From NCBI GenBank assembly GCA_013178305.1, contig JABLXB010000006.1:89921-153920 (forward strand): DNA of 64,000 nt, in the 5' to 3' direction. Shown in pieces: positions 3,923 through 41,313 of this stretch (within the stretch, counting starts at the first letter, position 1; each line of letters opens with the position of its first letter). Source of the DNA: Bacillota bacterium. Its GTDB lineage: Bacteria; Bacillota; Sulfobacillia; JABLXB01. Made by a program: the position numbers and the translations under genes. The notes below the pieces were generated by a model that saw nothing but the letters and a program-made list of their open reading frames with translations, ran no database searches and was not told the DNA's origin.

Positions 3923-4837
3923 GTGGAGCAATTCTTCCAGCAAATGGTCAACGGCATCACGGTCGGATCGGTGTACGCCCTCGTGGCGCTGGGCTACACG
4001 ATGGTCTACGGGATCCTCCGCATGATTAACTTCGCCCACGGTGAGATGTTCATGCTCGGGTCATATATCGCCCTCACGCTGCTGGTTTCCCAGAAGGTCA
4101 ACCTGCTGGCGACGATTCCCAACCTGTTCGTCGTGCTGCTCGGCGTGTTCATTATGTCGATGATTGTGGTCGGGGGCGTAGGGGTGGCCATTGAACGGAT
4201 AGCGTACAGGCCGCTCCGGAAGGCGGGCAGGCTGGCGCCTATTGTGTCGGCGCTCGGGATGTCCCTGGCCGTGCAGAACGCGGTCATGCTCACCTACGGG
4301 ACCCAATACCAGGTGTTCCCCGAGGGACTTTTGCCGGAGTTGGTCTGGCAGGTCGCCGGAGTCGAGATCACCCTGATGCGGGTGGTCATCCTGCTGATCT
4401 CGGTCGGCCTGATGGCCGCCCTGTATATATTCGTTCAGAAAACTCCGCTGGGGACCGCCGTCCGCGCCACGGCGCTCGACCACGACGCCGCCAGGCTTAT
4501 GGGCATCGATGTGGACCGGATCATCCTTACGGTCTTCCTGATCGGGCCGGCCCTGGGCGCAGCGGGCGGCATAATGGTGGGGATCTATTACAGGCAGGTC
4601 AACTTCACGATGGGGTGGACCTACGGTCTTAAGGCGTTCACAGCCGCCATCCTCGGCGGAATCGGAAACATCCCCGGGGCGATGGTTGGCGGCCTCCTGC
4701 TCGGCATCCTGGAGACCCTGGGCGCGGGATATATCTCTACCGGGTGGAAGGACGCGTTCGCATTCATCATCCTGATAACGATTCTGGTGGTAAGGCCGAC
4801 GGGGCTGCTCGGTGAGAGAGTGGCCGAGAAGATCTAG
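3923..4837 (+). CDS. livH: LIV-type ABC transporter permease, LivH family
   Basis: This 304-residue integral membrane protein has the LivH pattern: NGITVGSVYALVALGYTMVYGI followed by MINFAHGEMFMLG, and a late cytoplasmic loop with RATALDHDAARLMGIDVDR, the EAA-like contact with the ATPases. About eight hydrophobic helices can be drawn. It should form the membrane channel with the LivM protein encoded 12 bases downstream. The start is GTG 3923 behind GGGAGGA. It is second in the transporter operon, after the binding protein and hairpin. Confidence 0.95.
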   Translation: MEQFFQQMVNGITVGSVYALVALGYTMVYGILRMINFAHGEMFMLGSYIALTLLVSQKVNLLATIPNLFVVLLGVFIMSMIVVGGVGVAIERIAYRPLRKAGRLAPIVSALGMSLAVQNAVMLTYGTQYQVFPEGLLPELVWQVAGVEITLMRVVILLISVGLMAALYIFVQKTPLGTAVRATALDHDAARLMGIDVDRIILTVFLIGPALGAAGGIMVGIYYRQVNFTMGWTYGLKAFTAAILGGIGNIPGAMVGGLLLGILETLGAGYISTGWKDAFAFIILITILVVRPTGLLGERVAEKI

Positions 4838-8528: not shown

Positions 8529-8999
8529 TTGGACGGATATCCTGTGAAAACTGATTCGCTTGAGGCTTACAGGGACGCGCTGACAACGGCGGGATTCCGG
8601 TTTACCCGCCAGAGAGAGGCCGTTATCCGTGTACTCGCCGGCGCCGGCGGAGGCCACCTGAGTGCCGAGGAAATCGCCCAGGAAGTAAGGGCCACCGACG
8701 GGCCCGGTCTCGCCACGGTGTACCGCACGCTGTCGATGCTCGAGGGAATCGGCATTGTGAGAAGCATTGACCTCGGGGATGGACGGGCGCGGTACGAGAT
8801 CTCCGACGCCCCCGAGCACCACCACCATCACCTCATATGCACAGTGTGTGGGAGGGTGGAGGAGGTCGAACACGACCTCTTGCATCAGATCGAGGAGCAC
8901 GTAAAGGCTCGCCATGGTTTCGCAGTCAGGAATCATTCGTTGAAGATCTACGGCATCTGCAGCGTGTGCAGGGGTACGGGTGGTTCCACGGGTTCATAA
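8529..8999 (+). CDS. fur: Fur family metal-responsive transcriptional regulator
   Basis: The 156-residue protein has the Fur winged helix (FTRQREAVIRVLAG, HLSAEEIAQEV, GLATVYRTLSML) followed by a metal-binding dimerisation half. That half contains an EHHHHHLICTVCG His-Cys cluster and a second CSVC pair, together the usual structural zinc tetrad. Flanking Fur boxes and a FeoB neighbour point to iron sensing, not zinc (Zur) or peroxide (PerR). The start is uncertain: TTG 8529 has GAGGT eight bases upstream and was chosen. GTG 8514 and GTG 8544 are in frame. Expression should be self-limited through the palindrome at 8496. Confidence 0.9.
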   Translation: MDGYPVKTDSLEAYRDALTTAGFRFTRQREAVIRVLAGAGGGHLSAEEIAQEVRATDGPGLATVYRTLSMLEGIGIVRSIDLGDGRARYEISDAPEHHHHHLICTVCGRVEEVEHDLLHQIEEHVKARHGFAVRNHSLKIYGICSVCRGTGGSTGS

Positions 9000-9020
9000 G
9001 GGATTACGCGTGCCCACTAT

Positions 9021-9035
9021 TGAGAATGATTCTCA
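9021..9035. promoter_or_regulatory. Fur-box palindrome upstream of feoB
   Basis: TGAGAATGATTCTCA is a perfect 7-1-7 palindrome, 60 bases upstream of feoB, and very close to the classical GATAATGATTATC-type core. It overlaps a weak TTGAGA -35 candidate, as expected for iron-dependent repression of ferrous iron uptake. Confidence 0.8.
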
Positions 9036-9094
9036 GCCAAAGTTCACTTAAGGCCCGGGCGACGTTCAGAGCAGGTTGAAAGGGGCCTTCCCCA

Positions 9095-11284
9095 ATGAGA
9101 TCCGCCGTCGATACTGTACGAGACCTCGTAAGGTCGTTGTCTTCCCGGTTTTACGGGTACGGCAGGTGCCGGGGCTGCCACCGGTCGTGTCCAGGCCGGG
9201 GTAGCCGTCGGATGGCCGGCAGGGTCCTGCTTCTGGGCAACCCGAACGTGGGTAAGAGCGCGGTGTTTAACGCGCTCACAGGTGGCAGGGCGACTGTATC
9301 AAACTACCCCGGAACGACGGTGGAAATGCTGCAGGGTTTTCTGAAGGGCGTCTCCGCCTGCATTCAGGTGACAGATACCCCCGGGATGTATTCCATCGTC
9401 CCTGTGACTGAGGAGGAACGCATCGCGGTACGGGAGACGCTCACGGCTACGGAGAACACCGTAGTCGTGCAGGTCGGCGACGCCAAGAACCTCGAAAGGA
9501 CCCTGGCCTTAACCCTGCAGATACTCGATCTGCGAATCCCCCTGGTTCTTGTGCTTAACATGATGGACGAGGCCGAATCCGCCGGTATAAGCATCCACTC
9601 GGATGCGTTGAGCGGCTGTCTCGGCATACCCGTTGTGACGACGAGCGCTGTATCCGGGCGGGGGATTGAAGATCTTCGCAACGTCATTATCGGTAGCCTG
9701 GAGACAGTGTGGCTCGGCCGGCCCTGCGGGTGTATCTCAACCGGGGTTTCGTGTGCGGCTGCCGCCCTGTGGGGTCCCGTGGAGCTCGAGGGGCAGGATA
9801 GCGGAGCGGGGCCAGGGGGCGAGGCTGGCGAGGCTCTGCAACAGGCGAAGAGCATGCTTGAGGCGCTGAGCCGGTATTTCGAATCCCGGGCGCCGGGGCG
9901 CGGCCGGCTGTATGCATCTGTCTACCTTGAGGGCGGGCGCGACGGGCTGGCCGGTGTGCTGGACGAGGCCACACTCGTGGCCGCGCGCGACACCGTGGGA
10001 GACATCGACCCGCAGCAGGCGGAGCAGATCGCCCTTATCCTCGCGGGCGCCCGTCACGCGAGAGCCAGAGAACTCGCACGCCAAGCGCAGGCATGCACGG
10101 CGGAAGACGATGGTGCTCGCGGGCCCGCGGCCTCCGGGCGAGCCTTGCCGAAGACCGTCCCCGACATCGATAGGGTGCTGATACACCCGCTTCTGGGGTT
10201 TGTTCCGCTCGTCGCGGTCGTCTATTTTGGACTCTACCTCCTGGTAGGGAAGCTGGGGGCGGGGGTGGTCGTGGACTTTATCGACTCGGGGCTATTCGAG
10301 CGATTCGTGACCCCCAGGGCCACTACGGCAGTCGGCGCGTTCCCCGATCTCGCTCGTGACCTCCTCGCCGGTGACTACGGGTTACTCACGGTGGCGCTGC
10401 GGTACGCCTTCGCCATCATCATGCCTATAGTGGGCACGTTCTTCATCGCCTTCGCGCTGATCGAGGACTCCGGCTACCTTCCGAGAATGGCGCTCTTGCT
10501 CGACAGCTGGTTCAGGCGGTTGGGTCTCAACGGGCGCGCAGTTATACCGATAGTGCTGGGCTTCGGGTGCGACACCATGGCCACTGTAGTCACCCGGACG
10601 CTCGAAACAAGGAGAGAGAGGCTGATTGCCACAGTGATCCTGGCCCTGGCGATTCCATGCTCGGCGCAACTTGGACTCATCATGGCGATACTGTCCCCGC
10701 AGCCGGTCGCATTGTTGTTGTGGGCGCTGGTCGTGTTCGCGGTACTGGTGACAGTGGGTACGATGGCAGCGCGATTGCTACCGGGAGACCCGCCGGGTTT
10801 CTTTATGGAACTTCCTCCGCTCAGGGTCCCGCGACTGGCGAACATCCTTTCGAAGTCCTGGGCGAGGATGACGTGGTACGTGCTCGAGGTGATTCCGGTG
10901 TTCGCCGGCATGAGCGTGGTCCTGACGCTTGCGGACAGGTTTGGGGTGCTCGAGCGGGTCATAACCGTGATCGGGCCGCTCATGAGCTCGATGGGTCTGC
11001 CTGCGGCTGCGGCAGAGGTCTTCATATACGGCTTCTTCCGGCGCGACTACGGGGCTGCGGGGCTTTACGACCTGGCCAGGGCTGGTGTCCTGTCCACAAA
11101 CCAGATCCTGATCGCGGCCGTCGTTCTGACCCTGTTCGTTCCGTGTATCGCCCAGTTTACCGTAATGATGAGGGAGCGTGGGGTCACCGCCACGCTGGCA
11201 ATATCCGCGTTCGTGACGCTTTGCGCCGCAGGGGTTGGCATTGTTCTGAACGCCGCCATGGGCGCCCTGGGGGTGGTGTTGTGA
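9095..11284 (+). CDS. feoB: Ferrous iron transport protein B
   Basis: The 729-residue protein joins an N-terminal small GTPase domain to a polytopic membrane domain. G1 is GNPNVGKS at about residue 49, G2 lies in SNYPGTTVE, G3 is DTPG and G4 is NMMD. The membrane part has two Gate-like segments containing Cys (LGFGCDTMATVVTRTL, FVPCIAQF). It imports Fe2+ across the cytoplasmic membrane. ATG 9095 follows GAAAGGGG. An unusual 40-residue N-terminal extension with CRGCHRSC precedes the G domain, and the spacer between G domain and membrane domain is long. feoA-like sequence follows downstream, and a Fur box lies upstream. Confidence 0.93.
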   Translation: MRSAVDTVRDLVRSLSSRFYGYGRCRGCHRSCPGRGSRRMAGRVLLLGNPNVGKSAVFNALTGGRATVSNYPGTTVEMLQGFLKGVSACIQVTDTPGMYSIVPVTEEERIAVRETLTATENTVVVQVGDAKNLERTLALTLQILDLRIPLVLVLNMMDEAESAGISIHSDALSGCLGIPVVTTSAVSGRGIEDLRNVIIGSLETVWLGRPCGCISTGVSCAAAALWGPVELEGQDSGAGPGGEAGEALQQAKSMLEALSRYFESRAPGRGRLYASVYLEGGRDGLAGVLDEATLVAARDTVGDIDPQQAEQIALILAGARHARARELARQAQACTAEDDGARGPAASGRALPKTVPDIDRVLIHPLLGFVPLVAVVYFGLYLLVGKLGAGVVVDFIDSGLFERFVTPRATTAVGAFPDLARDLLAGDYGLLTVALRYAFAIIMPIVGTFFIAFALIEDSGYLPRMALLLDSWFRRLGLNGRAVIPIVLGFGCDTMATVVTRTLETRRERLIATVILALAIPCSAQLGLIMAILSPQPVALLLWALVVFAVLVTVGTMAARLLPGDPPGFFMELPPLRVPRLANILSKSWARMTWYVLEVIPVFAGMSVVLTLADRFGVLERVITVIGPLMSSMGLPAAAAEVFIYGFFRRDYGAAGLYDLARAGVLSTNQILIAAVVLTLFVPCIAQFTVMMRERGVTATLAISAFVTLCAAGVGIVLNAAMGALGVVL

Positions 11285-31817: not shown

Positions 31818-32369
31818 CTATTTAGCACCCATCCTCAGGCAGGAAATTATTTCTTCAAGTCTCGAAACAAGCGCCTTTACCCTGGGAGCCAGATACTCCT
31901 CCATCTCCGGATTTACCTCACCATATCGTCGCAATCGGCGAGGCTCGGAGTCCACCAACCCTTCCCATAGGCTGCTCGCCCTGGCAAAGATACTTGCACG
32001 CACAGATTGCGTGCGCATCTGAAGGTTTAGATCACTGCGCAAGACGTCCACTTCTTCTCTCAGGGCAATAACATGACGGCGAACCTTTTCCCTCTGTGCC
32101 GGGCTCAAGTCGTTTGTTTCGCTATACATAATACCTCGCCGCTCCCGACCGTCCGCCCAGGCCTCAAAGTCAAAAAGGGCCTCATCAAGCAGAGCGAGGA
32201 TAACCGATAGGCTGCGCCGTTGGCTTTCGTTCATAAGTTCCGCTGTCCGGAGATATTCCTCTGTACGGAGCATGTCCGGGCACATATCATTGACATTGTT
32301 GTCACCTGTGATTGCCTGGTCGGCGGTGTTCTTTCCTACGGACACAGCCTGGATAAAGCGACGCTTCAC
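31818..32369 (-). CDS. Unknown 183-residue helical protein controlled by a fluoride riboswitch
   Basis: The protein is mostly charged helix with no signal peptide or membrane segment. Residues about 35-75 (RTAELMNESQRRSLSVILALLDEALFDFEAWADG), 85-115 (AQREKVRRHVIALREEVDVLR) and the C-terminal LAPRVKALVSRLEEIISCLR look like helical-bundle or coiled-coil segments. I do not recognise a family. GTG 32369 has GGGGGGCGATAAC upstream. The frame is open further 5', but that part is the riboswitch. It is the only gene behind riboswitch (a). Confidence 0.75.
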   Translation of the reverse strand: MKRRFIQAVSVGKNTADQAITGDNNVNDMCPDMLRTEEYLRTAELMNESQRRSLSVILALLDEALFDFEAWADGRERRGIMYSETNDLSPAQREKVRRHVIALREEVDVLRSDLNLQMRTQSVRASIFARASSLWEGLVDSEPRRLRRYGEVNPEMEEYLAPRVKALVSRLEEIISCLRMGAK

Positions 32370-32420
32370 GTTATCGCCCCCCAGATAGGTTCGCAGCACT
32401 GGACCTCCACGGTGGTAAAC

Positions 32421-32495
32421 GAGAAAGCCCCTACGAGCAATCGTAGGAGCTATCATCTTGCGAAGAATCCGGCGAGCCCCATCGCCTGTGTTACG
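32421..32495 (-). promoter_or_regulatory. Fluoride (crcB) riboswitch (a), minus strand
   Basis: The aptamer opens with GGCGATGGGGCTCGCC (32486-32471). It continues to the conserved GATAGCTCCTACG, which pairs with CGTAGGGGCT across a six-base loop to form the terminator, followed by TTTCTCGTTT. The layout matches known crcB-motif RNAs base for base in the conserved parts. The regulated gene starts at 32369. Confidence 0.9.
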
Positions 32496-32499
32496 TTGA

Positions 32500-32528
32500 A
32501 TTATAATTGAGACATCCCTGGATTGCAA
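32500..32528 (-). promoter_or_regulatory. Promoter for riboswitch (a)
   Basis: On the minus strand TTGCAA (32528-32523) and TATAAT (32505-32500) are 17 bases apart and lead straight into the riboswitch aptamer. It diverges from the promoter of riboswitch (b), some 40 bases away. Confidence 0.75.
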
Positions 32529-32588: not shown

Positions 32589-32589
32589 T

Positions 32590-32676
32590 AGAGAGGTGGC
32601 GATGGAGCTCGCCCATTCATTCGAGATCAGCCCTCGTGATAGCTCCTACAATTACCTGTAGGGGCTTTTTGCTTCT
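32590..32676 (+). promoter_or_regulatory. Fluoride (crcB) riboswitch (b), plus strand
   Basis: GGCGATGGAGCTCGCC (32598-32613) forms the first aptamer stem. GTGATAGCTCCTACA then pairs with TGTAGGGGC over ATTACC, followed by TTTTT: a textbook intrinsic terminator competing with the fluoride-bound fold. The MFS transporter starts at 32698. Confidence 0.93.
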
Positions 32677-32697: not shown

Positions 32698-33930
32698 ATG
32701 GCAAGCGCGCGGGCAAGTACAACCCGTTCGTCGTGGCTCAACAGGAACGTCTGGGGGATGGCCGTTACGAGCTTCCTCTCCGACACCAGCCACGAGATGG
32801 CGACATCGGTACTTCCATCATTCCTGACGGCGCTTGGTTCGCCCCCTCTGGTTCTTGGGGCGATTGAGGGCGTATCGGATGCGCTCTCAAGTTTTGTAAA
32901 GCTAGGCGCAGGCTGGTATTCGGATAAAGTTGGCCGCAGGAAAGGCATAGTGGTCGCCGGATACTTCATAACCGGTGTAGCCTTATCGCTGTTTGCGTTC
33001 GCCAACGGGTGGGCGCTTGTGATGGTTGCCAGGGCACTTGGTTGGCTTGGACGCGGCGTGAGAGGACCGCTGCGCGATGCCATGCTGTTGGATTCAGTGG
33101 ATCAGAAGGATCGCGGGAAGGCGTTTGGGTTTCACCGCGCGGGTGACACCTTGGGTGCTATAGTGGGACCCCTCACGGCAGCCGCGCTGTTGGGCTTCTT
33201 CAAGCAAGCCGGCCCTGGCTCCGGCGTACCTGCATTAAGAGGCATATTCCTGCTAACCCTTCTGCCCGGCGTTGGGTCCGCGGTTGCGTTCGCTTCGCTA
33301 GTCAAAGAGAAACACGGCGCCGGGAAATCTCAACACAAGTTCTGGGCGACCTTACACCGCATGCCATCGGGATTCCGGAGATACCTGGTCGGCATCGCCA
33401 CATTTGGAATAGGAGACTTCTCACATACCCTCTTGATACTTGCGGCCACCCAGATTCTGAAACCATCCTGGGGCATCACCAGAGCGGCGCAGGTGGCTGC
33501 GATACTGTATGTCCTCCGGAACGTGTCGTACACGCTCTTTTCGTACCCGGTCGGACTCCTCAGCGATCGGTTAGGTCGTAGGTATGTTCTCGTCTTCGGA
33601 TATGCAATTGGCGCGGTTACCATGCTTGGCTTTTCGGCACTGTTCGCATTCCCCAACTACGTGTTACCCATACTATTTCTGCTCTTCACGGGCGCTGGAC
33701 TATATATTGCGGTGGAAGATACCCTTGAAGGGGCACTAACAGCGGATCTTGTACCCGACTCCGGAGTACGAGCCACCGCTCTTGGGCTGCTGGGCGTCGT
33801 CAACGGGGTTGGCGACCTGGTTTCAAGCCTAGTGGTAGGTGGCCTATGGAACGCAAGCCCGCCGATGGCCTTCGCGTATTCGGCGTTCATGATGTTGGCC
33901 GGCGCCCTGGTGCTGAGCCAGTTTCGGTAG
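32698..33930 (+). CDS. MFS transporter controlled by a fluoride riboswitch
   Basis: The 410-residue protein has 11-12 hydrophobic segments. It carries the MFS loop motif GWYSDKVGRRKG between helices 2 and 3, and a repeat of it (GLLSDRLGRRYV) in the second half. SFLSDTSHEMATSVLPSFL near the N terminus and RGVRGPLRDAMLLDSV after helix 4 are marks of a prokaryotic MFS subgroup of unknown substrate. Control by riboswitch (b) suggests export of fluoride, a fluorinated compound, or an ion whose balance is upset by fluoride. ATG 32698 follows GGGGTGGG. It converges on the DUF4129 operon. Confidence 0.88.
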   Translation: MASARASTTRSSWLNRNVWGMAVTSFLSDTSHEMATSVLPSFLTALGSPPLVLGAIEGVSDALSSFVKLGAGWYSDKVGRRKGIVVAGYFITGVALSLFAFANGWALVMVARALGWLGRGVRGPLRDAMLLDSVDQKDRGKAFGFHRAGDTLGAIVGPLTAAALLGFFKQAGPGSGVPALRGIFLLTLLPGVGSAVAFASLVKEKHGAGKSQHKFWATLHRMPSGFRRYLVGIATFGIGDFSHTLLILAATQILKPSWGITRAAQVAAILYVLRNVSYTLFSYPVGLLSDRLGRRYVLVFGYAIGAVTMLGFSALFAFPNYVLPILFLLFTGAGLYIAVEDTLEGALTADLVPDSGVRATALGLLGVVNGVGDLVSSLVVGGLWNASPPMAFAYSAFMMLAGALVLSQFR

Positions 33931-34150: not shown

Positions 34151-35545
34151 TCATACCCTGTTGTTTCCTATTCTATTTACAGACCGCACAATCTCCGCCA
34201 GGCACCGGTCAAGCTCTTCGTATTCGCCAGCCTCGACTGTGTATGCTCCGTATCTGACACGGATGTAAAGGTTGGTAAGGAACTCCACTGCCCCCCGCGG
34301 CGCAGGGGCGGCAGCCAGGAACCTGGGAAGGTATTCATACGGAGTCTCACTACTTCGGCGTCCGGCGTTTACCTTGGCCCCCAGGCCAAGCAAACGGCGG
34401 TAGGCTGTCCTTACTCGAGAAGGGTCTCCTCCATCTGCCGGTTCGCCACAGGACCCCGGCTCACAAGTCTGGTGCCCGGCAGCCAGCCACGGTAATTCAG
34501 CCCAGGACCAGATGGACTCACGGGTTTCCAAGACGCCCTCCTCCTCGGGTTCCAGTCTGAGCCAGATGGAGCTCATGAAGATGGACAGCATGACATAGGC
34601 GACAAAAAGAATGCCCAGCGCAAATACAAGCCCGACCAACCATGGCGGAAGACTGCGCAGGGTTTCTTCCTTGAGCTGGTCGGCGAAAGAGATGGTTACC
34701 CCGATCGGCGGGAGTCTCGCGGGACGCCTTGCGATCCACCGCATCAGGGGTTCAATGACCCGCCCCACTATCACTGCAATCGGCAACACGATTCCTAACA
34801 GTACGCCGGCAATCCACAGGAGGAACCGTCTAACGACAGCGGCGGCCCCAACCACATCACGGCCCGCCAATAGCCAACCAGCGGCGGTTGGAACTACCAC
34901 CACGCCCAGCGCCGCGATTATGGCGATTCTTCGCCAGGCTTTCCCGTGGGGGGGCCCCGGCTGTCCCACCTCCTCGGCCTGTAGGATGATGGCCGACATA
35001 CTTGTGCCTGCCAGTGCCAGTAATCCCGCGACGAAGAAACTCGCCATGCAAAGGACCAACCGTCCGGTAGAGTCGCTGGGCAAGCCCATCATGGGCGACA
35101 GGATAAGCAACAAGATCAATCGCAGTGTAAGGCTGGCAAATTGCTCGCTCAGCGCCCCATGATTCCGGTAATACTGCACAACCACAGCCCCGCGCCACCA
35201 GAGGAAAAGAAGGATGATTAGACTGGTCGTAAATGCATCTCCGGGAGCCGGTGCGAGAATCGCTGCGAGAGCTGCCGTGGAAACCAGCCCGCTCACCCCA
35301 ATGCCCGCCCGAAGGTAACCCAGGCTCACCTTTCTCTGGTAAAGATTCTCCGTCACCAGGGACCCAGCAGTGATCGCCAGAGCCTGAACCCACAGTACGG
35401 GCTTCTCAACATAAGCATCTAAACCCACGGCGGAGAAGATGACGATTTCCCAGGCGTACCAAAGAGCCATCTCCATGGCCAGGACCAGCGCATCCGTGAC
35501 GCCGAACGGCTTACCCGATCTGGAGCTCAAGCGGTGCACCCCCAT
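34151..35545 (-). CDS. Polytopic membrane protein with C-terminal DUF4129 domain
   Basis: The 464-residue protein has about nine hydrophobic helices up to residue 350. A cytoplasmic tail ends with the DUF4129 pattern: AYRRLLGLGAKVNAGRRSSETPYEYLPRF and LTNLYIRVRYGAYTVEAGEYEELDRCL. DUF4129 proteins regularly accompany MoxR ATPases and DUF58 proteins, often fused to transglutaminase domains. Here the transglutaminase part is absent. The gene overlaps the DUF58 gene by 35 bases and is last in the crcB operon. Confidence 0.83.
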   Translation of the reverse strand: MGVHRLSSRSGKPFGVTDALVLAMEMALWYAWEIVIFSAVGLDAYVEKPVLWVQALAITAGSLVTENLYQRKVSLGYLRAGIGVSGLVSTAALAAILAPAPGDAFTTSLIILLFLWWRGAVVVQYYRNHGALSEQFASLTLRLILLLILSPMMGLPSDSTGRLVLCMASFFVAGLLALAGTSMSAIILQAEEVGQPGPPHGKAWRRIAIIAALGVVVVPTAAGWLLAGRDVVGAAAVVRRFLLWIAGVLLGIVLPIAVIVGRVIEPLMRWIARRPARLPPIGVTISFADQLKEETLRSLPPWLVGLVFALGILFVAYVMLSIFMSSIWLRLEPEEEGVLETRESIWSWAELPWLAAGHQTCEPGSCGEPADGGDPSRVRTAYRRLLGLGAKVNAGRRSSETPYEYLPRFLAAAPAPRGAVEFLTNLYIRVRYGAYTVEAGEYEELDRCLAEIVRSVNRIGNNRV

Positions 35546-36722
35546 CTAAATGGACTCGACGCACGGTTACCCCCGGGCATTGATCCAGGTGAGCATTTTG
35601 CCCCACAAGCAGTACGATTACCTGCCGACCGGTATCCCTGGCGGCCAGGATGGAGTCTCTTAGCTCCTCGTTTGTGAACCCTGTGACCAGTACCACGCCA
35701 CAACCAGGTGGAAGTCCCGGAACCTCCGAATCCAACAACGTACAAATTGAACCGGATGGGCCATGCATCTTGGCCAGTGCCGCGAGTCCCTCCTCCAACA
35801 TTTCGGGGGAACGGCTGGGGGGTATCTTCAAACCTGTGCCGGTGCCCGCGACGCAACCATTTGAGAAGATTCCTGCCACATAACGGTTCTCAAGGCAGAG
35901 ACTGAACACTGAGGCGGCTACGGTAATCGCTTGATCGAGAAGGTCAACGTCCAATCCCAGCCAGGGAGGGTCATATGTGGCGGCGTTCAAAAAGACCGCC
36001 GTGCAGGTCTCGGCCCTGGGCTCATATACCTTGACCTGGAGGCTCCCTGTCCTAGCAGTCGCTTTCCAGTGAATGCGCTTGAAGCTGTCCGAAGGATCAT
36101 AGTCGCGTATGCCGGCTACGAAGGATGGGTCCTGCAGCAGCCGGTCGCTGACCCTGGTATCACCAAGCGGCCGCCGCGCTGGTAACCCCAGTGCCTCCAG
36201 GGGTAGAATCCTCGGATAGACAATCAGGTGGGTCGTATCCTTGAGCGCCAGCGTTTCCTTGCAGAACCCAAAAGGGTCTCCACACGTGAGCCTGGCTGGG
36301 CCGAGAGAGTAATAGCCGCGCCGGGGGAACCGGATTTCATACTGGCGGCGGACCCGCTCGTAGTAGCCCAACGATACGAAGGAAAGCAGTCTCTTGCGCC
36401 CGGGGATATAATGGATACCCAGGCGTCCTCCCTTCAGGATCAGGTCCTCTGGAACATCTTCCTCCATCTGAAGCCAGGTGATGGGCAGGAGCTTATGGTT
36501 TTCCAGGGTTATAGTCAGGGTTGCCGGCTCCCCTGGGAAAGTCCTGAGCGGGTGAATCTCCTTATTATAAGATACTCGCTTCAGGCTGATCTTTCCCCAG
36601 CTATAGGCAGCCAGGCTTATGGCCAGCACCGATACGTTCGCCATGAACAGCAGGCGCTGCTTCCACAGCAGGCTTAAGACACCAAGCACGATAAACAACG
36701 GGGTCCATGAGGCGGAGAACAT
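35511..36722 (-). CDS. DUF58 (vWA-like) membrane-associated protein
   Basis: The 403-residue protein starts with two hydrophobic helices (about 5-45), then a beta-rich region. The DUF58 core GIRDYDPSDSFKRIHWKATARTG lies near residue 210 and a vWA-like tail follows. DUF58 proteins act with MoxR ATPases, probably in assembling or maturing surface complexes. ATG 36722 lies two bases after the moxR stop (TGACATG). It is in the crcB operon behind riboswitch (c). Confidence 0.88.
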   Translation of the reverse strand: MFSASWTPLFIVLGVLSLLWKQRLLFMANVSVLAISLAAYSWGKISLKRVSYNKEIHPLRTFPGEPATLTITLENHKLLPITWLQMEEDVPEDLILKGGRLGIHYIPGRKRLLSFVSLGYYERVRRQYEIRFPRRGYYSLGPARLTCGDPFGFCKETLALKDTTHLIVYPRILPLEALGLPARRPLGDTRVSDRLLQDPSFVAGIRDYDPSDSFKRIHWKATARTGSLQVKVYEPRAETCTAVFLNAATYDPPWLGLDVDLLDQAITVAASVFSLCLENRYVAGIFSNGCVAGTGTGLKIPPSRSPEMLEEGLAALAKMHGPSGSICTLLDSEVPGLPPGCGVVLVTGFTNEELRDSILAARDTGRQVIVLLVGQNAHLDQCPGVTVRRVHLDGGAPLELQIG

Positions 36723-36723
36723 G

Positions 36724-37695
36724 TCATCTCACCGGCATTCCAGCAAGGTCTTCCACCGGAACGGGTGTGCAATCGAGCGCTTCCCCTACGAGCCTCTCCG
36801 CGTTCCCACCCGCAAGCCGGCTCTGGGTTTTCAGAAGGAGGCGGTGAGCAAATACCGGCCCGGCCAGTCGTTTGATGTCGTCGGGTACTACGAAATCCCT
36901 CCCTTGGGTGAGCGCGTGGGCTTGGGCACACCGGTACATGGCAAGCGTCGCCCGCGGACTGGCGCCCAGGCGGGACGAGGAGTGGGTTCGCGTTGCCCTC
37001 ACAACATCGACCAAGTAGCCCAGTACCACATCTGTTACCCTGACAGTCTTGGCGGCGCCTTGCAGTCCCAGTACCTGTTCCGGCGAGAGCACTGGGGCCA
37101 GGTCCGATAGCGGGTCGAGTGTTCCAAAACGCTGGACAATACCCATTTCCAGATCCCTTTCAGGGTAGCCCAGGCTAATCCTAAGCATAAACCGATCCAG
37201 CTGTGCCTCCGGCAATGGATACGTGCCCTCCATTTCGATGGGGTTCTGCGTTGCCAGGACCATGAACGGCCGAGGTAACTCGCGTGTTACTCCGTCCACC
37301 GTCACCTGCCGCTCTCCCATGGCTTCCAGGAGGCTGGACTGTGTTCTAGGAGTGGCCCTGTTGATTTCGTCCGCCAAGACGATATGCGCCATAACCGGCC
37401 CAGGCCGGAATTGAAACTCCCCCAGTTTTTGGTTGAAGTAGTTGAGTCCAGTCACGTCCGATGGCATCAGGTCGGGGGTGAACTGAATCCTCTGGAACGA
37501 GCAATCGAGGGACTCTGCAAGGGCTTTCGCCAGCGTGGTCTTCCCTATTCCCGGAACATCTTCCAGCAGTACATGCCCTTCCGCTAGCAGGGCAACAACG
37601 AGAAGGTCCATGGTTTCCTCTCTACCGACGAATGCTCTCCGAACATTGGTCTTCAATTCACGGATGAGAGAGTACGCAGTGAACATATCCATCAA
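36724..37695 (-). CDS. moxR: MoxR-family AAA+ ATPase
   Basis: The 323-residue AAA+ chaperone has Walker A EDVPGIGKTTLAKALA near residue 38, PSDVTGLNYFNQ, Walker B HIVLADEINRATPRTQSSLLEAM, sensor 1 VLATQNPIEMEGTYPLPEAQLDRF, and the C-terminal lid. MoxR proteins help insert metals or assemble complexes together with vWA proteins such as the DUF58 partner encoded next. TTG 37695 has TAGGAGG eight bases upstream; ATG 37692 is in frame. It follows the DUF190 fragment by 13 bases. Confidence 0.92.
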   Translation of the reverse strand: MMDMFTAYSLIRELKTNVRRAFVGREETMDLLVVALLAEGHVLLEDVPGIGKTTLAKALAESLDCSFQRIQFTPDLMPSDVTGLNYFNQKLGEFQFRPGPVMAHIVLADEINRATPRTQSSLLEAMGERQVTVDGVTRELPRPFMVLATQNPIEMEGTYPLPEAQLDRFMLRISLGYPERDLEMGIVQRFGTLDPLSDLAPVLSPEQVLGLQGAAKTVRVTDVVLGYLVDVVRATRTHSSSRLGASPRATLAMYRCAQAHALTQGRDFVVPDDIKRLAGPVFAHRLLLKTQSRLAGGNAERLVGEALDCTPVPVEDLAGMPVR

Positions 37696-38307: not shown

Positions 38308-38382
38308 GAGTAAGGCTCCCACGGTTATCCGTAGGAGCCATCATCACAGAGGACACCTGGCGAGCCCCATCGCCTATACTGT
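38308..38382 (-). promoter_or_regulatory. Fluoride (crcB) riboswitch (c), minus strand
   Basis: GGCGATGGGGCTCGCC (38374-38359) is the aptamer stem. GATGATGGCTCCTACGG pairs with CCGTGGGAGCC over ATAA. The run after the stem (TTACTC) is not T-rich, so this copy may terminate poorly or act on translation. It precedes crcB by about 90 bases. Confidence 0.9.
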
Positions 38383-38387
38383 TCTGA

Positions 38388-38604: not shown

Positions 38605-38609
38605 ACCAC

Positions 38610-38707
38610 CTAAAGGTGATGGGGCTCGCCGAAATTACCCGGACGAGTCGGGGGTTTACGTTCACGGGTTGATGGCTCCTGTCGTGTTGACAGGGGCTAT
38701 TTTGTTT
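38610..38707 (+). promoter_or_regulatory. Fluoride (crcB) riboswitch (d), plus strand
   Basis: GGTGATGGGGCTCGCC (38615-38630) opens the aptamer. A longer third stem than in the other copies leads to GATGGCTCCTGTC, which pairs with GACAGGGGC over GTGTT, then TATTTTGTTT. The dynamin-like gene starts at 38725. Confidence 0.9.
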
Positions 38708-38724
38708 GTGATGGAGGGACTCCA

Positions 38725-40497
38725 ATGCTTCAGCAGTACGCATCTCAAAAAGCTGCCCTTCTGAAGGCTCTATCGTTAGTTCAAGAAGTAGCCGAAGGTG
38801 CCGGACGGCCTGAGGTACGACAGGCGGCAGAACAGATATCCGAACAACTGCGCCAGGGGCGATTCAATTTGGTAGTATTAGGAGAGTTCAAGAGGGGTAA
38901 GTCGACTCTCATCAACGCCATGCTGGGGAAAGAGGTCGTTTCTGCAGGGGTTACCCCTTTGACATCAGTGGCAACCGAAATCGCATACGCCGAGAATGAC
39001 TGTGCGATGGTGCATTTTATGGACGGCAGCAAGAAAACCATAGATCTCAAAGAGATTCACGAGTACGCCACCGAGAAATACAACCCTCTCAACCGGAAAC
39101 GCGTGGGTAAAGTTGAGGCATTTGTTCAGTCGTCGTTCTTGGCGGATGGCCTGGTTCTCGTTGATACTCCTGGCGTCGGTTCTACCTATATGCACAACAC
39201 GAAATCAGCGTATGAATACATCCCCAAAGCAGACGCAGCCATATTCGTTGTGTCGGCTGATCCGCCCATCAGCAAAGCGGAGTGTGATTTCATACGGGAT
39301 GTACGCAAGTATGTAGACAAGATTTTCTTCGTTCAGAACAAAGTCGACTACCTGGCTGAGGAGGATATGGCCGAGTCATTAACCTTCACGCAGGGGGTCA
39401 TTGCCTCCGAAGTGGGGAGCGCTGGAATTGAACTATATCCCATTTCGGCGAGGCTGGCTCTCGAGGCAAAGAAAAGCGGTAACACGGAGATACTTCACGA
39501 GAGCATGCTGCCCGCATTCGAATCTGACATCGGTGGATTCCTGGTTAAGGGAAAAGGTGAGACTCTGCTTGAATCAGTTGGGCGGAAGACCGCGAACCTC
39601 CTGGCGGACCTCGAACTTGCTCTCTCCCTAGAACGTAAGGCCATTACCACTCCGTATGACGAGCTTGCGGCCAAAGCACAGGAGTTCTCGGATCTGGCCA
39701 AGAGAATCGAGAGGGAGCAGATGGAAGCAGAATGGATTCTAGATGGCGAAGTCGAGAGACTGTCTGCAGAAGTCATCGAGGAAATCGAGAACTTCAAGGC
39801 TCAGGCAACCGCATCCATTACGAGAGAGCTCGACATCTGCTGGAGCGAAACCGAAGATGCCTCTATCAAGAACCTACCCGAGATACTCACCCAATTTGTC
39901 AAGGCTAGGATCCTTCAGTATTTCACCAGTTTTCGGGAGGCCGCAGTCAGCCTAGCAGAAGATCGATTTAGGCAGATTGCCGGTCACCTCGCATGCAGGA
40001 TAGCGCCGCGCATCGCGGATATCAAGGCCTCTGCCGCAAGACTGTACAACATGGAGATCGAAATCCGCTCGGAGCCTATTCACTTTCAACAAGAAACGGA
40101 CTTCTACTTCCGGCTCGATGAGCTGCCCACGCTCCTGCCTCTTAAGCCTGGGACTCTCCAATCGTTCTTGCCCAAGAGGGTGGCCAGGGAAATGATTCGT
40201 AGGGCAACCACCGAAAAGGCATACATGCTTGTCGACCGGCAGTGTGGGAGAATCCGGTATGATGTCTTAGCGCGGCTGAATAATAGTACTTCTCTACTGA
40301 AGAGAGAGATGCAGCGACGGTTCCAGGATCTCCTGTCGCTTACGGAGGGTCTCTTCAACAAAACACTCGAAAGGCAGAAGAGTGGCAGGGCGGAAATATC
40401 GGCCCGGGTCTCGGAACTCGACAACCTGAGTGCCAAGATCGCTGACATCTCCCCGCCCCGCGCAGCCGCGGTCGGGGATTCGTGCCGAAGCAGGTGA
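38725..40497 (+). CDS. Bacterial dynamin-like GTPase controlled by a fluoride riboswitch
   Basis: The 590-residue protein has a dynamin-family G domain: LGEFKRGKSTLINAMLG (G1, about residues 52-68), GVTPLTSVATEI (G2), DTPGVGST (G3) and QNKVD (G4). A long helical stalk (residues 290-560) follows, with a hydrophobic hairpin-like patch around LDELPTLLPLKPGTLQSFLP. Bacterial dynamins bind and remodel membranes during stress or cell-envelope damage. ATG 38725 has GGAGGGAC upstream. It is the only gene after riboswitch (d). Codon use is less GC-rich than in flanking housekeeping genes. Confidence 0.88.
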   Translation: MLQQYASQKAALLKALSLVQEVAEGAGRPEVRQAAEQISEQLRQGRFNLVVLGEFKRGKSTLINAMLGKEVVSAGVTPLTSVATEIAYAENDCAMVHFMDGSKKTIDLKEIHEYATEKYNPLNRKRVGKVEAFVQSSFLADGLVLVDTPGVGSTYMHNTKSAYEYIPKADAAIFVVSADPPISKAECDFIRDVRKYVDKIFFVQNKVDYLAEEDMAESLTFTQGVIASEVGSAGIELYPISARLALEAKKSGNTEILHESMLPAFESDIGGFLVKGKGETLLESVGRKTANLLADLELALSLERKAITTPYDELAAKAQEFSDLAKRIEREQMEAEWILDGEVERLSAEVIEEIENFKAQATASITRELDICWSETEDASIKNLPEILTQFVKARILQYFTSFREAAVSLAEDRFRQIAGHLACRIAPRIADIKASAARLYNMEIEIRSEPIHFQQETDFYFRLDELPTLLPLKPGTLQSFLPKRVAREMIRRATTEKAYMLVDRQCGRIRYDVLARLNNSTSLLKREMQRRFQDLLSLTEGLFNKTLERQKSGRAEISARVSELDNLSAKIADISPPRAAAVGDSCRSR

Positions 40498-40632: not shown

Positions 40633-41313
40633 TTATGGGTCAGTGATTTCTTTGATTTTTTCGTTTTCAAGAAATTCTTGAATGAAACTTTCCATATGCG
40701 CGTGCACAGCGGCTTCGGCCTTGAGCTCGTCTCCCTCTACTATCGCTTCGAATACCCGCCTGTGCTCGAGTGTGCTGCGCTGGAGCCTTCCGGGTATCCC
40801 GAAGATCAGCTTGAAGAACCTTTCCTGGTGGTCACTCAGGTTGTCCATCAGGGCCTCAAGCCGCCTGTTCCTCACTGCCGCGATCAGGAACCTGTGGAAC
40901 TGGTCGCCGAGGGCCCTACAGGCGTCCTCATCCCCTCTCCGGATGGCGTCATCAGCCCCTTCGATCAGGCTTTCCGCCTCCTCGATCTGCTCCTTGGTAA
41001 GCGTACGCGCAGCCACGCGGGCCGCCATGCCTTCGAGAAGGCTCTTGAGGTGATACACTTCGCGTATATCCTCGCGCGAAATCGGGGCGACGTAAAAGCC
41101 CTTGTATGGATAGAAGACCACCAGTCCCTCCTTCTCGAGTTTGCGGAGGGCATCTCTCACCGGCGTCTTGGAAATGTGCAGCTGCTGCGCCAGCGACGTT
41201 TCCACAAGAGGCTGGCCCGGCCTCAGCACGAGGTTGATAATGGCGGCCTTGATACTCTGATACGCGCGTTCGGTGAGGGGCAATGCCCCTTCAAGCGGTT
41301 CAAGCGATGCCAT
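40633..41313 (-). CDS. GntR-family regulator with FCD ligand domain
   Basis: The 226-residue protein has a GntR winged helix (ERAYQSIKAAIINLVLRPGQPLVETSLAQQLHISKTPVRDALRKLEKEGLV) and a helical FCD domain. Its metal/ligand histidines appear in DQFHRFLI, EHRRVFEAI and VHAHMESF. FCD regulators answer carboxylates such as those carried by tripartite tricarboxylate transporters, in keeping with the tct genes just upstream in the transcript. ATG 41313 begins the conserved region. It is the last gene of the minus-strand series. Confidence 0.9.
   Translation of the reverse strand: MASLEPLEGALPLTERAYQSIKAAIINLVLRPGQPLVETSLAQQLHISKTPVRDALRKLEKEGLVVFYPYKGFYVAPISREDIREVYHLKSLLEGMAARVAARTLTKEQIEEAESLIEGADDAIRRGDEDACRALGDQFHRFLIAAVRNRRLEALMDNLSDHQERFFKLIFGIPGRLQRSTLEHRRVFEAIVEGDELKAEAAVHAHMESFIQEFLENEKIKEITDP

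Follow-up and report, generated by a model that had tools for sequence, protein, structure and literature searches.

The window, a 64,000-nucleotide stretch of a Bacillota genome, contains a fluoride island (32.4–40.5 kb) that holds all four credible fluoride riboswitches of the 3.37-Mb assembly (Table 1). The four face a crcB–MoxR–DUF58–DUF4129 gene series, a gene for a dynamin-like GTPase, an MFS transporter gene and a gene for a small protein of no known family. Only the riboswitch of the crcB operon exceeds the Rfam gathering score; the other three fall just under it and would therefore be missed by routine annotation. The three riboswitches besides the dynamin leader, implied by an initial annotation made from the sequence, proved to be real. 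The listed start of the small-protein open reading frame (ORF) is wrong because the start must follow the riboswitch, which puts the real start below about position 32430. This small, mostly helical-looking protein behind its own fluoride riboswitch is another candidate fluoride gene; relatives adjoin fluoride-linked dynamins at two further loci (L140, positions 209–661; L147, positions 4321–4740).

Table 1 Features of the fluoride island, with positions in the window
Feature	Position	Strand	Evidence
Small protein ORF, no known family	31818..32528	-	No Pfam match; relatives beside fluoride dynamins
Fluoride riboswitch for small helical protein gene	32437..32495	-	RF01734 31.9 bits, E 4.1e-5; R1 47.4 bits
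Fluoride riboswitch for MFS gene	32589..32655	+	RF01734 31.8 bits, E 4.4e-5; R1 41.4 bits
MFS transporter, family recurring in fluoride–dynamin clusters	32698..33930	+	MFS_1 E 5.8e-33
DUF4129 membrane protein	34151..35545	-	PF13559 E 1e-11
DUF58 protein	35511..36722	-	PF01882 E 1.1e-5
MoxR AAA ATPase, in line behind crcB	36724..37695	-	AAA_3 E 6.6e-66
crcB (Fluc fluoride channel), 126 aa	37836..38216	-	PF02537 E 9.2e-25
Fluoride riboswitch for crcB operon, divergent	38325..38383	-	RF01734 36.1 bits, above gathering
Fluoride riboswitch aptamer (RF01734/crcB motif), dynamin leader	38606..38688	+	32.0 bits, E=3.7e-5 (cmscan); clade model R1 49.2 bits (not independent), E 4.2e-9
Intrinsic terminator hairpin, putative ON-switch expression platform	38671..38701	+	14 pairs (terminator scan); fold -20.4 kcal/mol, z -5.75
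Dynamin-like GTPase (P0001)	38725..40497	+	590 aa; Dynamin_N E=3.4e-28; structure model; tree

The dynamin gene, its leader and its product

The aptamer ahead of the dynamin gene matches RF01734 over the full length of the model (1–64), but its score is 2 bits short of the gathering threshold (34) and a default Rfam scan therefore misses it. All invariant bases of the fluoride aptamer are present. The higher score from the clade model R1 is not independent, as the window copy is among the 35 relatives from which R1 was built. The 5′ arm of the terminator is the 3′ pseudoknot strand of the aptamer, and fluoride ON switches commonly have a terminator that overlaps the aptamer (Weinberg 2010, PMC2864571). 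The leader RNA has both the conserved core and the overlapping expression platform of RF01734; control of the dynamin by fluoride is well supported, and fluoride would be expected to induce the gene. The dynamin ATG lies 16–18 nt past the T-run of the terminator and the following gene (40633–41313) is on the opposite strand, so that the dynamin is the sole gene behind its riboswitch. The initial annotation had described it in this way, as the only gene after riboswitch (d) with an AUG 18 bases from the terminator tail, and had recognized a dynamin with all G motifs and a long helical stalk; both descriptions hold.

The protein matches Pfam Dynamin_N with 99 bits (cut-off 27) and its G motifs are intact (G53-EFKRGKST-61, P78-L-T80, DTPG at 147–150 and NKVD at 205–208). 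In an AlphaFold model (pLDDT 81), the GTPase domain is followed by long antiparallel stalk helices (residues 311–375, 384–440 and 484–552) and a flexible tip (441–483), at which model confidence is lowest (pLDDT about 42–58). The mean net charge per 100 residues is +9 at the stalk tip (468–490) and −5 to −6 in stalk helices 1 and 2. No other distal region is as positively charged or as hydrophobic as the tip; this hydrophobicity is moderate, and the tip contains no transmembrane span. By its GTPase motifs and its helical neck and stalk with a tip, the protein belongs to the dynamin superfamily. Membrane binding and assembly-stimulated GTP hydrolysis are predicted, with the charged, hydrophobic tip as a hint. 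No NCBIfam model reaches its cut-off, so the subfamily lacks a curated name in that collection.

Profile and fold searches identified IniA, BDLP, SynDLP, the Campylobacter dynamin pair and mitofusins as the closest solved structures, at whole-chain TM-scores of 0.3–0.5, values that are expected for hinged proteins and are not decisive. The best structural match is the mycobacterial isoniazid-inducible IniA (6j72, Foldseek E 1.2e-21), a single dynamin of similar size; however, identity is about 18%, and IniA is regulated by drug or envelope stress rather than by a fluoride riboswitch. BDLP of Nostoc (2j68) ranks first among solved structures by sequence profile (E 5e-47) and shares the GTPase domain, neck, helical stalk and tip at 15–16% identity in the fold alignment, and we know of no link between BDLP and fluoride. 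DynA of Bacillus subtilis, a dynamin with a protective role at stressed membranes (PMC8844932), combines two GTPase domains in one fusion protein, whereas the window protein has one. Membership of the DynA family (NF052648; two fused dynamin modules, about 1190 aa) was rejected on the basis of the single module of 590 aa and a score of 63.8 bits against a cut-off of 1600.

A dynamin clade linked to fluoride riboswitches

Homologs were gathered by protein similarity alone. A tree of 131 dynamins places all 98 riboswitch-linked sequences in a single clade of 119 members (support 99), which includes Bacillota, Thermodesulfobacteriota, Nitrospirota, Actinomycetota, Planctomycetota and other phyla; the window protein belongs to this clade, where it has a long branch and L076 as its sister. 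Sixty-nine clade members are directly behind a riboswitch (≤300 nt), 29 have one at 0.3–3 kb, 17 have none and 4 could not be judged, which gives a same-strand riboswitch within 3 kb for 98 of the 115 judgeable members, counts that include weak model matches of 20–30 bits. A stricter cut of at least 35 bits leaves 57 direct and 22 operon linkages among 114 judgeable members. Linkage persists after clustering at 70% identity (77 clusters, 74 of them judgeable and 58 of these linked, 42 directly and 16 by operon) and is thus not explained by redundancy. Some of the 17 members at which no riboswitch was detected are in fluoride clusters (for example, L140 and L110).

None of the 12 dynamins outside the clade, which are mostly members of tandem pairs, has a riboswitch. 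A separate draw of home-phylum dynamins with the Pfam model found riboswitches at clade members only, and the fused or paired dynamins in it had no fluoride riboswitch. We therefore rejected the linkage as a general property of dynamins: in the same phylum, dynamins that are tandem, fused or paired lack it. Two sequence features also separate the clade: ExxNPxN between G2 and G3 (116 of 119 members) and DTPG[VIL]GS in switch II (108 of 119; clade form DTPG[V/I]GSxxxHN), each found in 0 of the 12 outside dynamins compared, a set that does not include IniA. The window protein carries E117-KYNPLN and DTPGVGSTYMHNT, and its tree position and signature together place it in the clade. Campylobacter DLP1/2 and LeoA/LeoBC belong to the same superfamily and work as neighbouring pairs, whereas clade members are mostly single genes. 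A role in phage defence was provisionally rejected: the likeness to LeoA/LeoBC reported by PADLOC is at the level of the superfamily only, and clade loci show fluoride genes.

Another dynamin branch, divergent and long-stemmed, also lies behind fluoride riboswitches at four loci (L111, L112, L114 and L115), in three of them with a DUF6062 gene between. The fluoride dynamin is apparently split into two frames in a few genomes (L094, positions 8738–10440; L100, positions 8620–9954), by frameshift, sequencing error or decay.

The pairing recurs in each sample examined. In the home phylum (Bacillota), 398 genomes were searched with the window protein and, separately, with RF01734; fluoride riboswitches were carried by 36 of the 38 genomes with the dynamin versus 113 of the 360 others (odds ratio 39, p 7.5e-15). 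A riboswitch model built from 35 sequences was run over about 20 kb of DNA surrounding every homolog of this sample; dynamin starts typically lie 20–100 nt downstream of the aptamer. A cross-phylum sample of one genome per species, searched with the protein profile alone, yielded 80 named loci from Thermodesulfobacteriota, Nitrospirota, Actinomycetota, Bacillota, Planctomycetota (Brocadiales), KSB1 and other phyla. A same-strand riboswitch was found within 300 nt at 52 loci and farther upstream at 12; 11 had none and 4 were at a contig end. The 80th locus (L199), in which the ORF was uncalled and a riboswitch lies just upstream, was left out of this count. In a replicate sample of 198 evenly drawn genomes from the phylum of Desulfacinum hydrothermale (Thermodesulfobacteriota), 17 of 20 full-length homologs had a riboswitch directly upstream; by Rfam matches alone, 19 of 112 fluoride riboswitches there lie directly before a clade-type dynamin gene (hand count from tables). 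Terminators were predicted before the gene at 59 of the 69 directly linked loci and overlap the aptamer in 48 of the 59. Cultured carriers include Desulfovirgula thermocuniculi DSM 16036, Geosporobacter subterraneus DSM 17957 and Desulfacinum hydrothermale DSM 13146. A mobile, plasmid-borne fluoride island was considered and rejected, as 72,556 plasmids contained no homolog of the window dynamin at E 1e-30. The initial annotation had given a lack of recurrence in other genomes as a refutation; the survey decisively contradicts such a lack, as the pairing occurs across many phyla and marks a single dynamin clade. This suggests that the fluoride-switched dynamin is a widespread, apparently unreported part of bacterial fluoride survival.

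Genes around the clade loci and previous reports

Within 5 kb of 118 clade loci we found genes for Na+/H+ exchangers (NhaP, 28), MFS transporters (27), DUF6062 (21), Usp (19), HEAT-repeat proteins (17), DUF190 (16), enolase (12), P-type ATPases (11), CrcB (11), MutS domain V (10), MoxR (9), DUF58 (9) and H+-pyrophosphatase (7). All of these are minimum counts: family assignment relied on BLAST, and ORF calling at times chose an incorrect overlapping frame, crcB in the window being one such case. No fluoride-cluster families were found near the dynamins outside the clade. CrcB/Fluc, CLC-F, NhaP, enolase, pyrophosphatase, UspA and MutS are members of the fluoride regulon that share the RNA switch and often the cluster (PMC2864571 and PMC11139923), and the clade neighbourhoods mix known fluoride genes with families that are unnamed in the parts of the open fluoride literature covered by our search.

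Some of these families show recurrent arrangements. The order dynamin–MoxR–DUF58–DUF4129 (or to the contig end) behind one riboswitch is present in five distinct Bacillota genomes and two further contigs. The MoxR–DUF58–DUF4129 triad is behind crcB in the window (34151–37695, minus strand), directly behind the riboswitch in a family relative (L122, genome G001) and behind the dynamin in several Bacillota; apart from the window and L122, triad loci are L081, L082, L084, L088, L094, L160, L178 and L187. We saw no report of this triad in a fluoride regulon, one open paper with both terms being outside the scope of the search. MutS domain V proteins in fluoride clusters are encoded by two adjacent genes (L088, L090, L098, L101, L103, L111, L114 and others), a pairing suggestive of a heterodimer. 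DUF6062 is often the first gene behind the fluoride riboswitch (loci including L077, L078, L080, L091, L111, L114 and L115), and HEAT-repeat proteins commonly come after the fluoride dynamin.

No paper in the open literature searched combines ‘fluoride riboswitch’ with ‘dynamin’, a scope that excludes subscription papers and the gene lists and supplement of Baker et al. 2012. Within that scope, the statement of the initial annotation that no dynamin had been reported in a fluoride regulon agrees with the text available to the search. No dynamin is among the regulon members named in the portions covered of the open fluoride papers, and none is named in the corresponding portions of the 2010 motif paper, a 2020 review of orphan riboswitches, a 2024 fluoride review and a paper on an Enterobacter fluoride operon. 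Neither the RNA nor the superfamily is new; what appears new is the subfamily and the part it has in the response to fluoride.

Possible functions under fluoride stress

We consider it somewhat probable that the gene encodes a fluoride-induced dynamin-like GTPase of a distinct subfamily that acts on the membrane within the fluoride-resistance regulon of many bacteria, and this is the best explanation that we have. As F− and Mg2+ rise, the aptamer pseudoknot (GGGGCU with GGCUCC) would hold the strand that forms the 5′ arm of the terminator, so that transcription reads through into the dynamin gene, a step strongly supported by the layout of aptamer and terminator. The protein may then bind the inner face of the membrane through its positive, hydrophobic stalk tip, and GTP-driven assembly could tether, reseal or remodel the membrane. 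The membrane would thereby be kept tight and energized while HF enters and dissociates; two members of the regulon, the Na+/H+ antiporter and the Fluc channel, which is voltage-driven, would depend on a membrane in this state. Action at the cytoplasmic face is suggested by analogy with related proteins: DynA of B. subtilis clusters at nisin-damaged membrane (PMC8844932), and the drug-induced IniA mediates membrane fission (PMC6715688). According to PMC11139923, fluoride gets into the cell as HF; the cytoplasm becomes more acidic, the proton-motive force on which Fluc and the antiporters depend falls, and membrane-integrity genes respond to fluoride. A membrane-tightening dynamin would fit this physiology, and membrane protection or remodelling under fluoride stress is the most likely function. 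Of the two roles that the initial annotation had thought conceivable, membrane repair or a fluoride-sensitive GTPase, the former is favoured by fold and relatives.

The main rival is that a housekeeping dynamin is inhibited by fluoride, through a transition-state-like trap of GDP with AlFx, BeFx or MgFx, and is overproduced in compensation, as are enolase and pyrophosphatase. For these two enzymes, overproduction to offset inhibition is the accepted reading (PMC11139923 and PMC5533749); fluoride-sensitive enolase (12 loci) and H+-pyrophosphatase (7 loci) are in the same clusters as the dynamin, further neighbours are nucleotide hydrolases (MoxR, MutS domain V and P-type ATPase), and a GTPase that offsets its own inhibition would be regulated in the same way as one that serves the membrane. 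However, a housekeeping protein should be maintained independently of fluoride, yet clade members are as a rule linked to a riboswitch, the gene is present in only 38 of the 398 genomes of the phylum, and other dynamins of the same phylum, whose GTPase chemistry should be just as sensitive, have no fluoride riboswitch; we consider compensation unlikely. Slightly less likely still is that the dynamin clusters or matures membrane proteins of the fluoride response (channels, antiporters or MoxR–DUF58–DUF4129) instead of acting on bulk lipid. Transporters are the commonest neighbours and the recurrent gene order with the triad noted above would suit such an assembly factor, but no neighbour is constant and the dynamin is alone behind its riboswitch at many loci, including the window.

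Dynamin-family GTPases form GDP–metal-fluoride complexes, and the nucleotide site is intact here, so that a GDP-bound GTPase could in principle soak up AlF4− or BeF3−. Such a sink is very improbable: toxic cell fluoride exceeds about 100 micromolar (PMC11139923), far beyond the binding capacity of a protein, and a 590-aa stalked protein is costly, with its conserved stalk and tip left unexplained. The probability of a misannotation, or of a riboswitch-like sequence lying near a dynamin gene by coincidence, is negligible; the window aptamer does score below the Rfam gathering threshold, but the recurrence across phyla with a matching terminator layout, together with the controls, rules out a chance association.

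The switch-region signature of the clade, with ExxNPxN ahead of G3 and DTPGxGSxxxHNT within switch II, might tune the GTPase to fluoride, making it resistant to metal-fluoride trapping or directly switched by it, such that a fluoride-induced and fluoride-gated dynamin would remodel the membrane only under fluoride stress; we regard this reading as improbable.

The fluoride response has so far been explained by exporters, pH control and the replacement of inhibited enzymes. The clade described here would add a conserved mechanochemical membrane GTPase, with the implication that the membrane, or a GTPase, may be an unrecognized target of fluoride. Bacterial dynamins, the roles of which are mostly unknown, would gain a clade whose inducer is defined and which can thus be approached directly by experiment.
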